This document shows positions 7,471 through 14,001 of a stretch of DNA of 21,195 nucleotides, piece after piece. Below the pieces are notes generated by a model, which saw only the letters and a program-made list of their open reading frames with translations, was not told the origin of the DNA and ran no database searches. This DNA is from a virus: positions 1 through 21,195 of the IMG/VR virus record IMGVR_UViG_3300017782_000277; one strand, given 5' to 3'. Each line of letters begins with the position of its first letter. The stretch's first letter is position 1. A program made the translations under genes and the position numbers.

Positions 7471-7733
7471 CATTATTTCAAAAACAAACATTCCTTGCAA
7501 ATTACAGTTACTTAGCAACTCAGCTTATAGATGTTATGGAACGAGCTGCAAATAGTAATTCAAAGAAAAAATATCAAAATGCAAAAAACCTTGTTGATGC
7601 ACTCAATGAAGTTTATATGTACACAAGATTGCTAGAAAATGAAGAACAAAATGCTCAACAAAAATTAGTTATTGAGCGTACAGCTAAATTAAGAGCAGTT
7701 GAATCATTAAAAAAAATAAGAAAAGATGGGTGA
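7467..7733 (+). CDS. Hypothetical helical protein
   Basis: I choose ATG 7467, which overlaps the previous stop as ATGA, giving 88 residues. The frame is open further upstream, but only inside the preceding gene. The protein is almost entirely predicted helix, with Asn/Gln/Lys-rich and coiled-coil-like sections (EEQNAQQKLVIERTAKL). No catalytic or membrane motif is visible. It overlaps the next gene by eight bases. It is a small early phage protein of unknown role. Confidence 0.55.
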   Translation: MTLFQKQTFLANYSYLATQLIDVMERAANSNSKKKYQNAKNLVDALNEVYMYTRLLENEEQNAQQKLVIERTAKLRAVESLKKIRKDG

Positions 7734-8004
7734 TATAATTAGTAAATACTTTGAGATGTTAGAAGATGGCGAATGGACTTCTAATAATACTAGAGAAAAT
7801 AGAAAAGATCAGATAGTAGAAAATGTAAAAACATTATACGATATACGAGCTATAAAAGGTAAAAACCGATATGGTGTTACTATGGATCGTAATGACTTAA
7901 GTTTTTTAGAATGGTTAACACATTTGCAAGAAGAACTTATGGATGCTACAATATATTTAGAGAAACTTAAATTTGAGTATAATAACAACTCTAAAGAGAA
8001 ATGA
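7726..8004 (+). CDS. Hypothetical protein, possibly an all-alpha NTP-pyrophosphatase relative
   Basis: A 92-residue helical protein with the well-defined segments GKNRYGVTMDRNDLSFLEWL and HLQEELMDATIYLEKLK. The second resembles the EE..DA..YL helix of MazG-type nucleotide pyrophosphohydrolases, but the complete ExxE..ExxD set is not convincing. It belongs to a run of small overlapping early genes. The TGA stop overlaps the ATG of a tiny membrane peptide. A nucleotide-metabolism role is only a suggestion. Confidence 0.55.
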   Translation: MGDIISKYFEMLEDGEWTSNNTRENRKDQIVENVKTLYDIRAIKGKNRYGVTMDRNDLSFLEWLTHLQEELMDATIYLEKLKFEYNNNSKEK

Positions 8005-8115: not shown

Positions 8116-8343
8116 ATGAACACAAAAGAAATTACATTTTACGACGTTTATCTTACAGTTGACTATGACTATAGTCCTGAAGAACCAACAATATGGAGAT
8201 ACTCTAATGGAGATGGCCATCCAGGTAGTCCAGCTTACGTAGATATACTTGATATACGTGTACAAGATACAAGCATATTAGTAGTATTTAGTGACGATTT
8301 AATTGAAAAACTAGAGGAAAAAATACTCGATGAACATTCTTAA
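8116..8343 (+). CDS. Hypothetical acidic protein
   Basis: A 75-residue acidic protein and first gene after a consensus -7 box. It looks beta-rich (ITFYDVYLTVDYDY, SPAYVDILDIRVQ) and has a WRYSNGDGHPGSP loop, ending in a charged helix (LIEKLEEKILDEHS). I do not recognise the family. The overlap of 14 bases with the following gene suggests co-translation. It may be an early regulator or an inhibitor, but there is no motif evidence for either. Confidence 0.55.
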   Translation: MNTKEITFYDVYLTVDYDYSPEEPTIWRYSNGDGHPGSPAYVDILDIRVQDTSILVVFSDDLIEKLEEKILDEHS

Positions 8344-8593
8344 AGAAGCAGATAAAATAATCAATGATCGTTCTGAAGAGAAAGAACGTATGTATGGGCC
8401 TTTTAGTAAAGGTATGGAAAGAGCAGCTATAATTGCTTCAGCTAGTACTGGTAAACATATTACAGCTAAAGATATGTATTTATGTATGGTTGCTTTAAAA
8501 CTATCTAGAGAGTCTTATAATCACAAAGAAGACAACTTATTAGATGCTGTAGCTTATTTAGGCGCATTAAATAATTACGAAAACGGAGAATAA
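8330..8593 (+). CDS. DUF6378-like small phage protein
   Basis: An 87-residue helical protein matching the pattern I know for DUF6378: an N-terminal EADKIINDR helix, then RMYGPFSKGMERAA, HITAKDMYLCMVALKLSR and DNLLDAVAYLGAL. The family is common in phages, often near nucleotide-metabolism genes, and its all-alpha layout with conserved acidic residues recalls MazG-type folds. Its activity is unknown. The stop overlaps the start of the SGNH-like gene, tying it to the hypermodification cluster. Confidence 0.65.
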   Translation: MNILKEADKIINDRSEEKERMYGPFSKGMERAAIIASASTGKHITAKDMYLCMVALKLSRESYNHKEDNLLDAVAYLGALNNYENGE

Positions 8594-9513
8594 TGAAAGT
8601 AGCAATGCTAAATTTACTTGGTAATATACCAATAAGATTAAACTCTCATAATGCTGGTTGGACTTTTTGTTTAGCTAGTATTATAGAAGATAGATCAGGA
8701 GTTTATCCTGATTTTATAAATGACGCTAAAGATATTAAAAACTATGATTATATAGTTATCAATAATGGTATAAACTATAAGAAAGATCAATGGAATTTTT
8801 TTGGCGGTGTACAAGAATCTACTATTGAAAAGCTACAAGAGTTATCTAAGTTTAAAGGTAAATTGATATCTTATAATGAAGAGGTTGAGTTTGATAGTTT
8901 ATTAAAGCGTAAAGAGATAACTCAAATACCAGATAAAAAAGTATACTTAAAGCATACAGAGACAGGTGATAATATAATTATAGGTGACTCACATTCTTTG
9001 TCTATATTTAAAAAAGGATATAATATAAAGCGGATAGATGGTAAAACATTACATGGTTTTTTAAAAGATCCTTATAGTTATTATGATTTAAATAATGCTA
9101 AAAAAGTATATATGTATTTTGGCAATATAGATATACGTTTTCATATAATGAGACAAAGTAGTCCTATGAATGCTATAAAAGATTTATGTGATAAATATGC
9201 TAAATTAGCTTGGGAACTATGGAATAATGAATCCGAGGTATTTATACAAGGTTTATTACCTATAGAAGATGAGTCAAGAAAAATACCTGGTACTGGTCTA
9301 TATAAAGATAAACCATTTTTTGGTACTCAAGAACAAAGAGAGCAGATGCGTATTTTATTTAATGACTATATGCGTCAGCATTCTAATCAATTTAACTTTA
9401 CATTTGTTGAGCCTTGGTTAGATAGTCCTTTAAGTTTTGATGATATGGAAGCAAGACAATCAGTACATGTTAGACCTAGTTCATATTTATATAAAGATAC
9501 TTTTGTATGTTAG
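8593..9513 (+). CDS. SGNH/GDSL-like protein, first gene of the putative hypermodification cluster
   Basis: A 306-residue two-part protein. Residues 1-115 look like a Rossmann-type domain (MKVAMLNLLGN; YDYIVINNG; KGKLISYNEE). Residues about 117-300 carry SGNH hydrolase landmarks: IIIGDSHSLSIF (128-139, nucleophile S133), YMYFGNIDIRFHIM (173-186, the block III Gly-Asn) and QSVHVRPS (289-296, candidate catalytic H292, with D283/D284 upstream). Such enzymes hydrolyse or transfer acyl groups; a form with FGEIDCR occurs near polysaccharide genes. Here it is coupled to base-modification genes by overlapping starts and stops, so the substrate could be a decorated base or an activated donor. The role is inferred. 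Composition is very AT-rich. Confidence 0.55.
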   Translation: MKVAMLNLLGNIPIRLNSHNAGWTFCLASIIEDRSGVYPDFINDAKDIKNYDYIVINNGINYKKDQWNFFGGVQESTIEKLQELSKFKGKLISYNEEVEFDSLLKRKEITQIPDKKVYLKHTETGDNIIIGDSHSLSIFKKGYNIKRIDGKTLHGFLKDPYSYYDLNNAKKVYMYFGNIDIRFHIMRQSSPMNAIKDLCDKYAKLAWELWNNESEVFIQGLLPIEDESRKIPGTGLYKDKPFFGTQEQREQMRILFNDYMRQHSNQFNFTFVEPWLDSPLSFDDMEARQSVHVRPSSYLYKDTFVC

Positions 9514-10433
9514 ATCAATTTAAAGATTATTATAATAAAGCTAAGTTAAACCAACAAAGACTTTACCAAGGTTATAACTGGACTAAAGAAGATATAAATG
9601 ATGATTTAGTTTGGCATATACCAATATATGATGTAGTTAATAGACGTTATGCTGCTTTTAGTAGTTTACTTGAGGCGTTAAAATTAAAAGATAAAGATCC
9701 TAAAGGTAATGGTAATTATTTTTTAAATACTAGCTTTAGTAATTTTGATTTTATTTTTTTATGTTATTTATTTAGACTATGTGGATCTGGTATTAACTAT
9801 ATACCTAAAAGAGATTTGCCTTATGGTTCTCATGGCTTTGGTAATTTTTGGATAGTAGACTCTTTAAAAAATGGCAGATATAATAAAGATCAATGGCTAG
9901 ATGATTTGCCTGATAAAAAGTTTAGTGATAATAAAGGTTATTTATTACCTATGATATCTAAAGGTTTAAATGCTTTTATTAAAGAAGATGCATTAGAGTT
10001 AGTTAATCATATATTTAAAAATCTTGAATGGAACCCTGAGATCTATCAGATAGTAGATATAGGAAACAAATGGCTTATTGATAAAGGATATAAAAGACAG
10101 AACTTTGTACTATGTGCTTTTGCTATGGATTTAGCTGAGTATTTTCCTAATATAATATCTAGAGATAGTAAAGTATATATAGGATCTAATGCTAAAAAAT
10201 GTTTAAAGCAGATATTTCCTAAAGCTAAAGGTATTGGTACAAACTTAGATAACACTAATAATTGTTTAGAATACCTTTGCGATATAACCGGAAACTATAG
10301 TAAGAAATATGACATGGAAGATGTTGCTTGTGACTTTATAAGATATATAGATAATTTTCAAAGTAAGCATCATATAGAATTTAACAACGGAATAAAATAC
10401 TATAATAATGTTTTTAAACAAACAGAAGTATAA
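9507..10433 (+). CDS. Putative DNA base hypermodification protein (HMUDK-helical / aGPT-Pplase-like)
   Basis: A 308-residue mostly helical protein. Its order of motifs resembles the helical family found with 5-hydroxymethyl-dU DNA kinases and amino-acid:DNA transferases (alpha-glutamyl/putrescinyl-thymine pyrophosphorylase clades). The key stretches are SNFDFIFLCYLFRLCGSG (78-95), HGFGNFWIV (109-117), FVLCAFAMDLAEYFP (200-214), VYIGSNAKKCLKQIF (223-237) and YDMEDVACDFIRYID (268-282). In characterised phages this family joins amino acids or polyamines to an activated hydroxymethyl base. Its neighbours, a PLP enzyme and a hydroxymethylase, are those expected of such a pathway. The match is by remembered pattern and is remote. 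The closest alternative is an unrelated helical protein of unknown function. Confidence 0.55.
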   Translation: MLDQFKDYYNKAKLNQQRLYQGYNWTKEDINDDLVWHIPIYDVVNRRYAAFSSLLEALKLKDKDPKGNGNYFLNTSFSNFDFIFLCYLFRLCGSGINYIPKRDLPYGSHGFGNFWIVDSLKNGRYNKDQWLDDLPDKKFSDNKGYLLPMISKGLNAFIKEDALELVNHIFKNLEWNPEIYQIVDIGNKWLIDKGYKRQNFVLCAFAMDLAEYFPNIISRDSKVYIGSNAKKCLKQIFPKAKGIGTNLDNTNNCLEYLCDITGNYSKKYDMEDVACDFIRYIDNFQSKHHIEFNNGIKYYNNVFKQTEV

Positions 10434-11301
10434 AGAGAATAATGATATAAAAGGTTTTATGAATTTAGACTATTATCTAGATTTAACTAAAGACTTTAGT
10501 TCTTCTTTTGGTGATTTTAATGTTAAACAAGTAAATGGCTTTAATGTTATAGACGAATCAGAATCTTGCGAGGTTGGTTATAAAGCAAGAAGTGGTGAAT
10601 TTTTTATACAAGAATTAGTAGCTAAAGGTATTACTAAAATAGTTTACGTACAACCTAGAAGAGGTTTTGCTGGTATATCATTGTCTTGGTTATGTAAAAA
10701 ATATAATTTAGATCTTATATTAGTTATGCCTTCTTCTAAAGAAGTTAGTGATCACCAAGCTTTATGTATTGAGTTAGGTGCTAAGCCTTTGTTTGCTAGA
10801 ATAGCAGCTATGCCTAACGCTAATAGTTTAGCAAAAAAATATGCTGATAAAATAGATGCATATTATATACCACTAGGATTGAATCATCCTTATGTAATAG
10901 CAGGTGGTGTTAGATCTATTTATGATTATTTTAAAGACAAAGAAAAACCTAATACAATGTGGAGTGTAATATCTACAGGCGTACTTAGTAGATCAATGCA
11001 GATAGCTTTACCAGATACAGAATTTAAAGCCGTTGCTGTAGCAAGAAACATACAACAAGGTGAGTTAGGTAGAGCAGAGTTTTATTCATATCATAAACCA
11101 TTTAATAGCAAATCAGATTTAATACCAGATGAGTTTGATTGCGAGAACTCTTATGACTCTAAAGGTTGGGACTACATGATTAAATATGGCAAAAAAGGTG
11201 ATTGGTTTTTTAGTGTAGCAGGAAATGCTAAACTACCTACTATAGATAAAAGTACTATAGACTCTTATAGAGACTGGAATGATTTAAAAGATTTTAAATA
11301 A
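10408..11301 (+). CDS. Fold-type II PLP-dependent enzyme (ACC deaminase/threonine synthase-like)
   Basis: A 297-residue protein from ATG 10408; an in-frame ATG at 10459, after the previous stop, gives 280 residues and may be the true start. The PLP Schiff-base lysine is probably K59 in EVGYKARSGEFFIQEL, followed by a TKIVYVQPRRGFAGISLSW segment like the GG.QSNHA strand-helix of ACC deaminases. A glycine/serine phosphate-binding loop candidate is SVISTGVLSRSMQIA (186-200). The substrate is unknown. In thymidine-hypermodifying phages, PLP enzymes decarboxylate or rearrange the amino acid attached to the base, and I infer an equivalent role here from context. Confidence 0.7.
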   Translation: MFLNKQKYKENNDIKGFMNLDYYLDLTKDFSSSFGDFNVKQVNGFNVIDESESCEVGYKARSGEFFIQELVAKGITKIVYVQPRRGFAGISLSWLCKKYNLDLILVMPSSKEVSDHQALCIELGAKPLFARIAAMPNANSLAKKYADKIDAYYIPLGLNHPYVIAGGVRSIYDYFKDKEKPNTMWSVISTGVLSRSMQIALPDTEFKAVAVARNIQQGELGRAEFYSYHKPFNSKSDLIPDEFDCENSYDSKGWDYMIKYGKKGDWFFSVAGNAKLPTIDKSTIDSYRDWNDLKDFK

Positions 11302-11308
11302 TTTTTAT

Positions 11309-11316
11309 TATATTTG
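11309..11316 (+). promoter_or_regulatory. TATATTTG -7 box, exact consensus
   Basis: TATATTTG stands 16 bases before ATG 11333, the same spacing as at 8116 and 4672. No TTG is present at -33. It would give the hydroxymethylase its own promoter in addition to read-through from the upstream cluster. Confidence 0.5.
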
Positions 11317-11332
11317 TTAAACAATAATTAAC

Positions 11333-11980
11333 ATGAACTTTAAAACAGCACAAGAAGCTTTTGAGTATCTTTATGAAGATATAAAACAAAATGGTATTGA
11401 CTTTAGTAATACTAAAGCTTTGTTTAATGTTGGTTTTTATATAGAAGATCCAATAAGTAATAGAATAGATACTAACTATAGAAAATGGAGTGAAGTATAT
11501 GCTAATGCTGAATGGCAATGGTATTTATCTGCTGATAATAATATAGAAAAATTAGGTGAGATATATGGTAAAGTACCTGCGATATGGAAACGTATGGCAA
11601 GAGAAGATGGTACAGTCAATTCTAATTATGGCTGGCAATGGTCTAGAGAAGCTCAATTAGATAAAGTAATAGATATACTTAGAAAAAATAAAACAACAAG
11701 ACAGGCAACAATAAGTATTTACGATGGTAAAGAGATAAATAGCTATAAACATGATACACCATGTACTTATGCGGTACAATTTACTATTATAGATAATAAA
11801 CTATGTATGTCGGTATATATGAGATCAAATGATTTATGGTATGGATTTTGCAATGATCAATATCAGTTTTCTATGTTACAACAAAAAGTAGCACAAGAAT
11901 TAAATGTCCAAGTCGGGTGGTATTATCACCACGCACATAACTTACATTTGTATAACGATAAATTAAATAATAATGACTGA
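11333..11980 (+). CDS. Thymidylate synthase-family dNMP hydroxymethylase, Asp at base-recognition site
   Basis: A 215-residue enzyme, shorter than the typical 264-residue thymidylate synthase, but all core motifs are present: AEWQWYLSADNNI (E60, equivalent to E. coli E58), SNYGWQW (97-103), catalytic DTPCTYAVQF (C144), RSNDLWYGFCNDQ (164-176) and LHLY (204-207). Where E. coli has N177, which reads uracil, this protein has D175. T4 dCMP hydroxymethylase also has Asp there, and Asn-to-Asp changes shift synthases toward dCMP. I therefore infer folate-dependent formation of 5-hydroxymethyl-dCMP rather than dTMP. It has its own -7 box and overlaps the MazG-like gene by eight bases. Confidence 0.8.
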   Translation: MNFKTAQEAFEYLYEDIKQNGIDFSNTKALFNVGFYIEDPISNRIDTNYRKWSEVYANAEWQWYLSADNNIEKLGEIYGKVPAIWKRMAREDGTVNSNYGWQWSREAQLDKVIDILRKNKTTRQATISIYDGKEINSYKHDTPCTYAVQFTIIDNKLCMSVYMRSNDLWYGFCNDQYQFSMLQQKVAQELNVQVGWYYHHAHNLHLYNDKLNNND

Positions 11981-12266
11981 GTTTAAATTAATTAGAAACT
12001 GGGCAAAAAAACGTGGCATATATGACAAAGGCGACGTAAAAACACAATTAATAAAATTATATGAAGAAACAGGAGAACTATCAGAAGCTATTCTCAAAGG
12101 TGATCAAGAGGAGTTTATTGACGCTATCGGTGATACCGTTGTGGTACTCACTAATCTTGCCGCTTTGGGTGATGTCGATATTGAGCATTGTATTAAGCAC
12201 GCGTATGGTGAGATCGCTTCTAGAACTGGAAGTATGGTTAATGGAACATTTGTAAAAGATAAATAA
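11973..12266 (+). CDS. MazG-like nucleotide pyrophosphohydrolase
   Basis: A 97-residue, all-alpha, single MazG domain. The metal-binding set is visible: YEETGELSEAI (E31/E32, E35) and EEFIDAIGD (E47, D50, D54), then VVVLTNLAAL. These enzymes hydrolyse NTPs or dNTPs to monophosphates. Directly after a hydroxymethylase, the likely job is to destroy the normal dNTP competing with the modified one, as dCTPases and dUTPases do in T4- and SPO1-like phages, and to supply the dNMP substrate. The nucleotide preference cannot be read from the sequence. A stop/start overlap joins it to the exonuclease gene. Confidence 0.8.
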   Translation: MTEFKLIRNWAKKRGIYDKGDVKTQLIKLYEETGELSEAILKGDQEEFIDAIGDTVVVLTNLAALGDVDIEHCIKHAYGEIASRTGSMVNGTFVKDK

Positions 12267-13291: not shown

Positions 13292-13496
13292 TGATTATTT
13301 TTACAAGCTAACATATAATAGTGTATACGAAGGTAGCTCGTTGCAAGAAATAAATAACATATTAAACGTATACGAGGAACTAGAAGACTATGAAGCTTGT
13401 GAAGGTATAAACAAAGCATTGAAAGAAATAAAAATAATGACATTAAGCGATTTTATAGACAAAATAAATTATATACATGGAAGATTATCACATTAA
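13263..13496 (+). CDS. Hypothetical small helical protein
   Basis: A 77-residue acidic, helical protein (LQEINNILNVYEELEDYEAC; EGINKALKEIKI). It starts 29 bases inside the exonuclease gene and ends 20 bases inside the DnaA-like gene. Overlaps on both sides and unbroken tight packing support coding. I recognise no family. An internal ATG (13437) could give a short 19-residue product. A role as a recombination or replication accessory is suggested only by neighbours. Confidence 0.5.
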   Translation: MNTLSKEHYSDYFYKLTYNSVYEGSSLQEINNILNVYEELEDYEACEGINKALKEIKIMTLSDFIDKINYIHGRLSH

Positions 13497-14001
13497 AAAG
13501 ATTAAAAAATTAGTAGAACAAGAGTACGGTTACTTTGTAGACTCACCTACTAGAAAAAGAGAAGTAGTAGAAGCAAGAGGAATGTACTACACAATACTAA
13601 AGGAATTTACTAGTTTAAGTTTAGCTGCTATTGCTAGAACAGTAGGTAAGAATCATGCTACTATATTATATAGTTTAAAAAACTTTAAGCAGTGGAGAAA
13701 AGAAAATAAATACTTAGATCTTGCTTATAGAAATATAGTAGACAAATTATCTATGTTAGACGAAGTAGACTCTTTTAACGATATTAAAGAGCTAAGAAAA
13801 GAATTGGTAAGACTAAAATTAGAGAATCAGAATCTTAAAAACATCGAGCAAAAGAAAGACTCAATAGAAGAACTAATTAAAGACTTACCTATGGATAAAG
13901 TACAAGAAGTAAAAGATAGAGTAAAAGTAATGATACAATCCTACTCTTGGAAATATAAAGACAAAGTAAAAGTTTATCAAGCTAATGCTACTGTATTATG
14001 A
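13477..14001 (+). CDS. DnaA domain IV-like DNA-binding protein with coiled-coil
   Basis: A 174-residue protein. Residues about 5-75 resemble the DnaA C-terminal duplex-DNA-binding domain: VEARGMYYTILKEFTSLSLA (31-50), then IARTVGKNHATILYSLKNF (52-70), corresponding to the DnaA signature IG..F..RDHSTV..A. A long charged helix (RKELVRLKLENQNLKNIEQK) follows, then a short basic C-terminus. There is no AAA+ ATPase domain. Such proteins probably bind origin-like sites in the phage genome and recruit the helicase, or act as regulators. The coiled-coil suggests a dimer. It overlaps a micro-ORF by four bases. Confidence 0.72.
   Translation: MEDYHIKKIKKLVEQEYGYFVDSPTRKREVVEARGMYYTILKEFTSLSLAAIARTVGKNHATILYSLKNFKQWRKENKYLDLAYRNIVDKLSMLDEVDSFNDIKELRKELVRLKLENQNLKNIEQKKDSIEELIKDLPMDKVQEVKDRVKVMIQSYSWKYKDKVKVYQANATVL

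Follow-up and report, generated by a model that had tools for sequence, protein, structure and literature searches.

A candidate phage operon joining amino-acid DNA hypermodification genes to a predicted dCMP-type hydroxymethylase

To our knowledge, all known amino-acid hypermodifications of DNA that use an amino-acid:DNA transferase (ADDT) and a pyridoxal phosphate (PLP) enzyme are built on hydroxymethyluracil, and the known decorations of hydroxymethylcytosine are sugars or carbamoyl groups. Here, a module of five genes at positions 8593–12266 of the IMG/VR virus record IMGVR_UViG_3300017782_000277 was analyzed, in which an ADDT-like protein and a PLP enzyme are encoded together with an SGNH-type protein, a hydroxymethylase, and a MazG-like pyrophosphohydrolase. 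The record, which the window covers from end to end, is a linear 21,195-bp fragment from a marine phage. A sequence-only reading had regarded the module as a hypermodification operon with the core of the 5-hydroxymethyldeoxyuridine (hmdU) pathways of phages ViI, M6, and phiW-14. The operon class and the core proteins stood, whereas membership in the hmdU pathways was not supported, since the hydroxymethylase carries the Asp/Thr residues of enzymes acting on deoxycytidine monophosphate (dCMP). The module probably encodes amino-acid hypermodification of DNA at cytosine, with an SGNH-type enzyme in the place of the kinase. The joining of amino-acid machinery to a dCMP-type hydroxymethylase is possibly new, as is the activation step; no description of this gene combination was found in a literature search, which left out key subscription papers.

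Gene content and predicted target base

Five open reading frames (ORFs) were present on the plus strand, as the sequence-only reading had placed them. Three of the four junctions between them overlap, by 7, 26, and 8 nt, whereas the PLP enzyme and hydroxymethylase genes lie 31 nt apart, so the earlier description of five overlapping genes holds for all junctions but this one. The PALP, thymidylate synthase, and MazG identities proposed earlier were confirmed by Pfam profile matches. The five genes, and the small gene upstream of them, are:

8593–9513, plus strand: two-domain protein, putatively T4 beta-glucosyltransferase (BGT)-like and SGNH (AlphaFold 2 model and profile evidence)
9507–10433, plus strand: all-helical amino-acid:DNA-transferase/HMUDK_hel-like protein, termed HELp (fold)
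10408–11301, plus strand: fold-type II PLP enzyme, PALP (PF00291, E 8.2e-9)
11333–11980, plus strand: predicted dCMP-type 5-hydroxymethylase of thymidylate-synthase fold, with C144, T145, R164, and D175 (PF00303, E 3.2e-24)
11973–12266, plus strand: MazG/PRA-PH-like nucleotide pyrophosphohydrolase, candidate dCTPase (PF03819, E 1.2e-6; PF01503, E 3.7e-6; PHROG MazG, E 4e-31)
8330–8593, plus strand: DUF6378 small protein (PF19905, E 4.6e-13)

The target base was predicted from the hydroxymethylase. Its sequence matches in the PDB were headed by MilA, a CMP 5-hydroxymethylase, followed by thymidylate synthase and, in fourth place, T4 dCMP hydroxymethylase. At the base-reading position, N177 of thymidylate synthase, aspartate (D175) was found in all 69 module homologues, whereas asparagine was found in four of four hydroxymethylases acting on deoxyuridine monophosphate (dUMP; M6, Epa5, SH-Ab 15599, and RHph_I65). 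The position of H147 in thymidylate synthase was occupied by threonine in 67 of the 69, and the catalytic cysteine C144 was invariant. Both specificity residues match gp42 of Aeromonas phages 44RR and 25; phage 25 has T/D in gp42 and H/N in its own thymidylate synthase. In the MetaGPA study, Asp177 and position 147 marked phage contigs with experimentally modified cytosine, and modified cytosine was also tied to the joint presence of thymidylate-synthase and PRA-PH domains (PMC8670742). All three signs are present in the window. These results point to a dCMP-type hydroxymethylase and shift the operon from the hydroxymethyluracil to the hydroxymethylcytosine side, the substrate base most likely being 5-hydroxymethylcytosine (5-hmC) rather than 5-hydroxymethyluracil. 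Members of this hydroxymethylase family are uniformly short (most about 205–220 residues) and end just past an H-x-Y motif, without the C-terminal part of thymidylate synthase.

The ratio of nonsynonymous to synonymous substitution rates (dN/dS), calculated against two relatives, was 0.08–0.19 for all five genes, which are real and under purifying selection; together with the kept gene order, these values indicated that the cluster is not a chance assembly. Independent scans of viral contigs, each with one of the first three proteins as query, yielded 79 non-redundant IMG/VR contigs beyond the window. In 65 of the 79, the SGNH, ADDT-like, and PLP genes were direct neighbours and the contig also carried a hydroxymethylase. 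Among the remaining 14, 12 were truncated by the end of a contig or stretch, a paralogous gene was inserted in one (L014), and one had a short PLP ORF (L122). The module is common in viral metagenomes. In species genomes, relatives of the PLP enzyme were confined to two contigs of metagenome-assembled genomes (MAGs), both phage-like in appearance. A cyanophage-like contig present in two MAGs carries the ADDT-like gene, a paralogue of it, and the PLP and SGNH genes in a different order, along with porin, high-light-inducible protein, and ribonucleotide reductase genes recognized by eye; no hydroxymethylase was seen on this contig, the single match in the MAGs lying on another contig. The linkage in the viral contigs and this reordered copy suggested that the module moves as a unit. 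In some relatives, the PLP enzyme and hydroxymethylase genes are separated by a further gene, which encodes about 186 residues, among them conserved Cys and His, and has no Pfam or PHROG match (L003:3130–3687, with equivalents in L007, L011, L012, L070, L075, L082, and L096).

The SGNH, ADDT-like, and PLP proteins

The model of the first protein (pLDDT 91.8) showed a Rossmann-like domain from residue 1 to about 110 and an SGNH hydrolase/acyltransferase fold at residues 121–303 (Z 14 over residues 124–302). SGNH chains filled the list when the whole model was searched, and the PDB neighbours of the domain include carbohydrate esterases; the SGNH identity proposed earlier was thus confirmed by fold. 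Residues S133 (GDSH), N178 (GNID), and H292 were invariant in homologues. When the first 112 residues were searched as a profile against the whole PDB, the only match was T4 BGT (1bgt/1nzd), at a weak E of 0.036–0.04 and with an alignment beginning at residue 1 in both proteins. Furthermore, 7 of 16 first-protein members matched PF09198 (T4-Gluco-transf), the best with an E of 0.005, under the cut-off. These matches are suggestive of a relationship to the 5-hmC acceptor domain of T4 BGT, a likeness that would fit the module, since 5-hmC in DNA is the substrate of T4 BGT. Moreover, all three complete phages with an SGNH-family protein (44RR, Aeromonas phage 25, and Tenacibaculum phage PTm1) encode an Asp-type hydroxymethylase.

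Two relatives (L119 and L130) encode the SGNH and ADDT-like parts as a single protein of 639 residues, and ORF233c of 44RR continues from its SGNH part into a C-terminus that matches HMUDK_hel marginally (E 9e-4). These fusions suggested that the SGNH and ADDT/HMUDK_hel-like proteins act together.

The second protein gave no sequence match in Pfam, PHROGs, NCBIfam, or a PDB profile search, nor did any of 15 family members match the Pfam families ADDT and HMUDK_hel (PF18724 and PF18723). A tblastn search of 50,697 phage records was likewise negative, and hhalign found no relation to M6 ADDT or to HMUDK_hel, a weak test since ADDT and HMUDK_hel were not linked to each other either. The predicted structure (pLDDT 86.9) was more informative. 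In BFVD it matched ADDT (E 2e-10, TM 0.76), aGPT-Pplase1, HMUDK_hel, and ORF233c of Aeromonas phage 31, and in the PDB the best match was gp46 of Pseudomonas phage PaMx11, a 5-phosphomethyl-dU (5-PmdU) glycinyltransferase (8z2n; Z 10.3 over 208 residues, 5% identity), followed by queuosine salvage hydrolases and helix-hairpin-helix (HhH) DNA glycosylases. The top rows of this list were mutually consistent. The HMUDK_hel/aGPT-Pplase-like identity proposed earlier was thus recovered through the fold, while by sequence the protein matched no family, related or unrelated. Residues common even to the cyanophage-like form include R90, G93, S94, N97, Y98, D208, G226, N228, E271, D272, C275, D276, and R279. 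Some modules contain a divergent second helical paralogue of this protein (L014:823–1755, L029:5952–6854, L030:5340–6242, and L170:6716–7702), possibly for a second transfer or a base-flipping step.

The PLP enzyme scored 35.6 bits against PF00291 (cut-off 35), and its predicted Schiff-base residue K59 was invariant and aligned with those of M6 gp52 and of the Erythrobacter phage protein described below. It matched phrog_7093 (E 4.5e-19), to which M6 gp52 also belongs (E 2e-159); the gp52 gene lies between the ADDT (gp51) and radical S-adenosylmethionine (SAM) (gp53) genes, with HMUDK genes alongside. M6 gp52 reportedly acts as a decarboxylase on an amino acid that the radical enzyme has first made accessible, from which it would follow that in the present module the amino acid is already attached with its amino and carboxyl groups free, for example serine linked via its oxygen. 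PALP domains of the same PHROG also occur in other contexts: that in gp1 of Erythrobacter phage vB_EliS_R6L (L017, KY006853.1) is fused to an N6/N4 DNA methylase, and those of ZS04 and Microcystis phage Mae-JY30 (PP438422.1) lie within proteins annotated as DNA methylases.

Kinase and radical SAM genes were sought in the window and in 26 related contigs, all of which are fragments, with none known to be complete. No P-loop 5-hmdU DNA kinase (PF18748) was found in these 27 contigs, in agreement with the sequence-only reading, by a profile that found the M6 and ViI controls and missed phiW-14. No radical SAM gene was found in them either. The kinase is a gap left unfilled in fragments, not a proven absence.

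Proposed pathway and alternatives

Gene content, folds, specificity residues, linkage, and fusion were read together as the following series of proposed reactions. MazG would clear deoxycytidine triphosphate (dCTP) from the pool, and the hydroxymethylase, given its family and specificity residues, would form 5-hydroxymethyl-dCMP. This nucleotide would be raised to 5-hydroxymethyl-dCTP by a kinase assumed to come from the host and then be incorporated into DNA. The first protein would bind 5-hmC in DNA via its T4-BGT-like domain, and Ser133 of its SGNH domain would activate the hydroxymethyl group, probably by acylation, whereas the thymidine pathways phosphorylate it. The ADDT-like protein, of HhH fold, would put an amino acid in the place of the leaving group, and the PLP enzyme would act on the DNA-bound amino acid, most likely by decarboxylation, because no radical SAM isomerase was found and the enzyme is related to M6 gp52. 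A candidate for the product is 5-(2-aminoethoxy)methyl-dC, which would be the cytosine equivalent of the base in phage ViI, and the modification would likely serve escape from host nucleases. The pathway class is the part that we regard as probable. The specific kinase-free route, in which a BGT-like/SGNH chimera esterifies 5-hmC in DNA, the HhH-fold transferase exchanges the ester for an amino acid and the PLP enzyme then processes that amino acid, is offered tentatively.

Several points weigh against the cytosine amino-acid pathway. The order of the steps and the chemistry of the SGNH and PALP proteins are ours by inference, and the modification in the carrier phages is predicted from their genes. 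The ADDT identity is drawn from a fold match whose Z of 10.3 is moderate for a helical protein, and the resemblance to T4 BGT falls under every formal cut-off. Direct BLAST between the window PALP and M6 gp52 was insignificant, their link running via the PHROG profile. In addition, no T4-type deoxynucleoside monophosphate kinase was found in the window or the 26 relatives, so the step from 5-hydroxymethyl-dCMP to 5-hydroxymethyl-dCTP is unfilled in these fragments, and no sequenced isolate carrying the whole module was found.

The alternative that survives best, although we consider it unlikely, is attachment of the amino acid by the PLP enzyme. This enzyme would form aminoacrylate from serine or O-acetylserine, to which a nucleophile of the base would add; the SGNH protein would add or remove an acyl group, and the ADDT-like protein would only flip and hold the base. 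The solved structures nearest to the PALP profile are cysteine synthases/O-acetylserine sulfhydrylases, which keeps a beta-replacement role in view, the module also encodes an acyl-type enzyme (SGNH), and the Erythrobacter phage has a direct fusion of PALP with a DNA methylase. These structural matches are weak (E 5e-4), however, and the phosphate-binding loop differs by eye from that of the cysteine synthases. Moreover, the closest protein by PHROG is M6 gp52, whose cluster has a separate ADDT.

A second, less probable explanation is a sugar or other acyl modification of 5-hmC that is completed by the SGNH protein together with its partner, the amino-acid resemblance being incidental. The T4 BGT-like N-terminal domain, the carbohydrate esterases among the SGNH neighbours, and the position of the SGNH-family gene of Aeromonas phage 25 next to UDP-galactopyranose mutase and glycosyltransferase-like genes are consistent with it. 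However, the module has no recognized glycosyltransferase donor domain or sugar-nucleotide gene, and the PALP and the ADDT-like protein are invariant partners.

Assignment to an hmdU (thymidine) pathway of the ViI/M6/phiW-14 kind seems very improbable: the ADDT-like fold, PLP enzyme, and hydroxymethylase do occur together, but all 69 homologues have Asp rather than Asn at the base-reading position, and neither an HMUDK kinase nor a radical SAM gene was found in the 27 contigs. Least credible is a cluster for nucleotide and amino-acid metabolism without DNA modification. In its favour, some relatives have MazG, hydroxymethylase, and dCMP deaminase/dUTPase as ordinary genes of nucleotide metabolism, but the ADDT/DNA-glycosylase fold, the SGNH–HMUDK_hel-like fusion, the Asp-type hydroxymethylase, and the strict co-transfer of the module all argue against it.

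If the kinase-free cytosine route is correct, it would be the first amino-acid-based hypermodification of hydroxymethylcytosine, with a novel route for activating a DNA base. A module of this composition would bring a new modified base, new activation chemistry, and new enzymes for labelling 5-hmC. Since relatives occur in cultivable Aeromonas phages (44RR and 31), part of the module is testable now.

Genomic context and comparison with known systems

The first gene overlaps the DUF6378 gene on its 5' side by 1 nt, and an exonuclease gene on the 3' side of the MazG gene likewise overlaps it by 1 nt, indicating that the module sits within a longer operon. DUF6378 was found in nearly all relatives, immediately 5' of the SGNH gene in most, and is a constant part of the module at its upstream end. 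The window's terminase is closest, among sequenced ones, to terminases from phages of Flavobacterium psychrophilum (56% identity), which makes a flavobacterial, or at least Bacteroidota, host plausible, as the sequence-only reading had it. The closest Flavobacterium phage, Fpv5, gave no PALP or hydroxymethylase match and carries DNA methyltransferases close to its terminase. Elsewhere in the window, positions 7726–8004 encode a second small helical protein, MazG-like by eye and with PHROG matches of unknown function only, and positions 13477–14001, between the exonuclease and terminase genes, encode a DNA-binding protein that by eye resembles the DnaA C-terminus (motif GKNHATILYSLKNF).

The thymidine hypermodification cluster of Pseudomonas phage M6 (gp51–gp58) resembles the module in bringing together an ADDT, a PALP-type PLP enzyme of the same PHROG, and a hydroxymethylase of the thymidylate-synthase family. 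M6 has a dUMP-type hydroxymethylase (Asn), a P-loop HMUDK kinase, an HMUDK_hel protein, and a radical SAM enzyme, whereas the window has a predicted dCMP-type enzyme and the BGT-like/SGNH protein, and neither kinase nor radical SAM was found. PaMx11 gp46 (8z2n) shares its fold with the 9507–10433 protein, but the base and the leaving group would differ if the hydroxymethylase has been read correctly.

The T4-like Aeromonas phages 44RR2.8t and 31 share with the window a dCMP-type hydroxymethylase (gp42), a dCTPase (gp56), and an SGNH domain, in their case fused to an HMUDK_hel-like domain (ORF233c), although the C-terminal half of ORF233c has no detectable sequence relation to the 9507–10433 protein. 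The PALP family had no match in 44RR or Aeromonas phage 25, and 44RR2.8t has a serine hydroxymethyltransferase in its stead. This full-length enzyme (ORF008c, L169 6130–7299; PF00464, E 5e-129) is encoded in the same phage as the SGNH/HMUDK_hel-like fusion. In Aeromonas phage 25 (L168, NC_008208 150841–154112), the SGNH-family gene lies beside genes for UDP-galactopyranose mutase and a glycosyltransferase-like protein, a hint of galactofuranosyl hydroxymethylcytosine.

The 5-hmC carbamoyltransferase phages of MetaGPA also combine an Asp177 hydroxymethylase with a PRA-PH domain, after which a dedicated enzyme acts on the 5-hmC hydroxyl (PMC8670742). That enzyme is a carbamoyltransferase, whereas the window encodes the SGNH, ADDT-like, and PLP proteins. 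Finally, the N-terminal domains of T4 BGT and the first protein appear alike, whereas the rest of T4 BGT, including the UDP-glucose-binding donor half, is replaced in the first protein by the SGNH domain.

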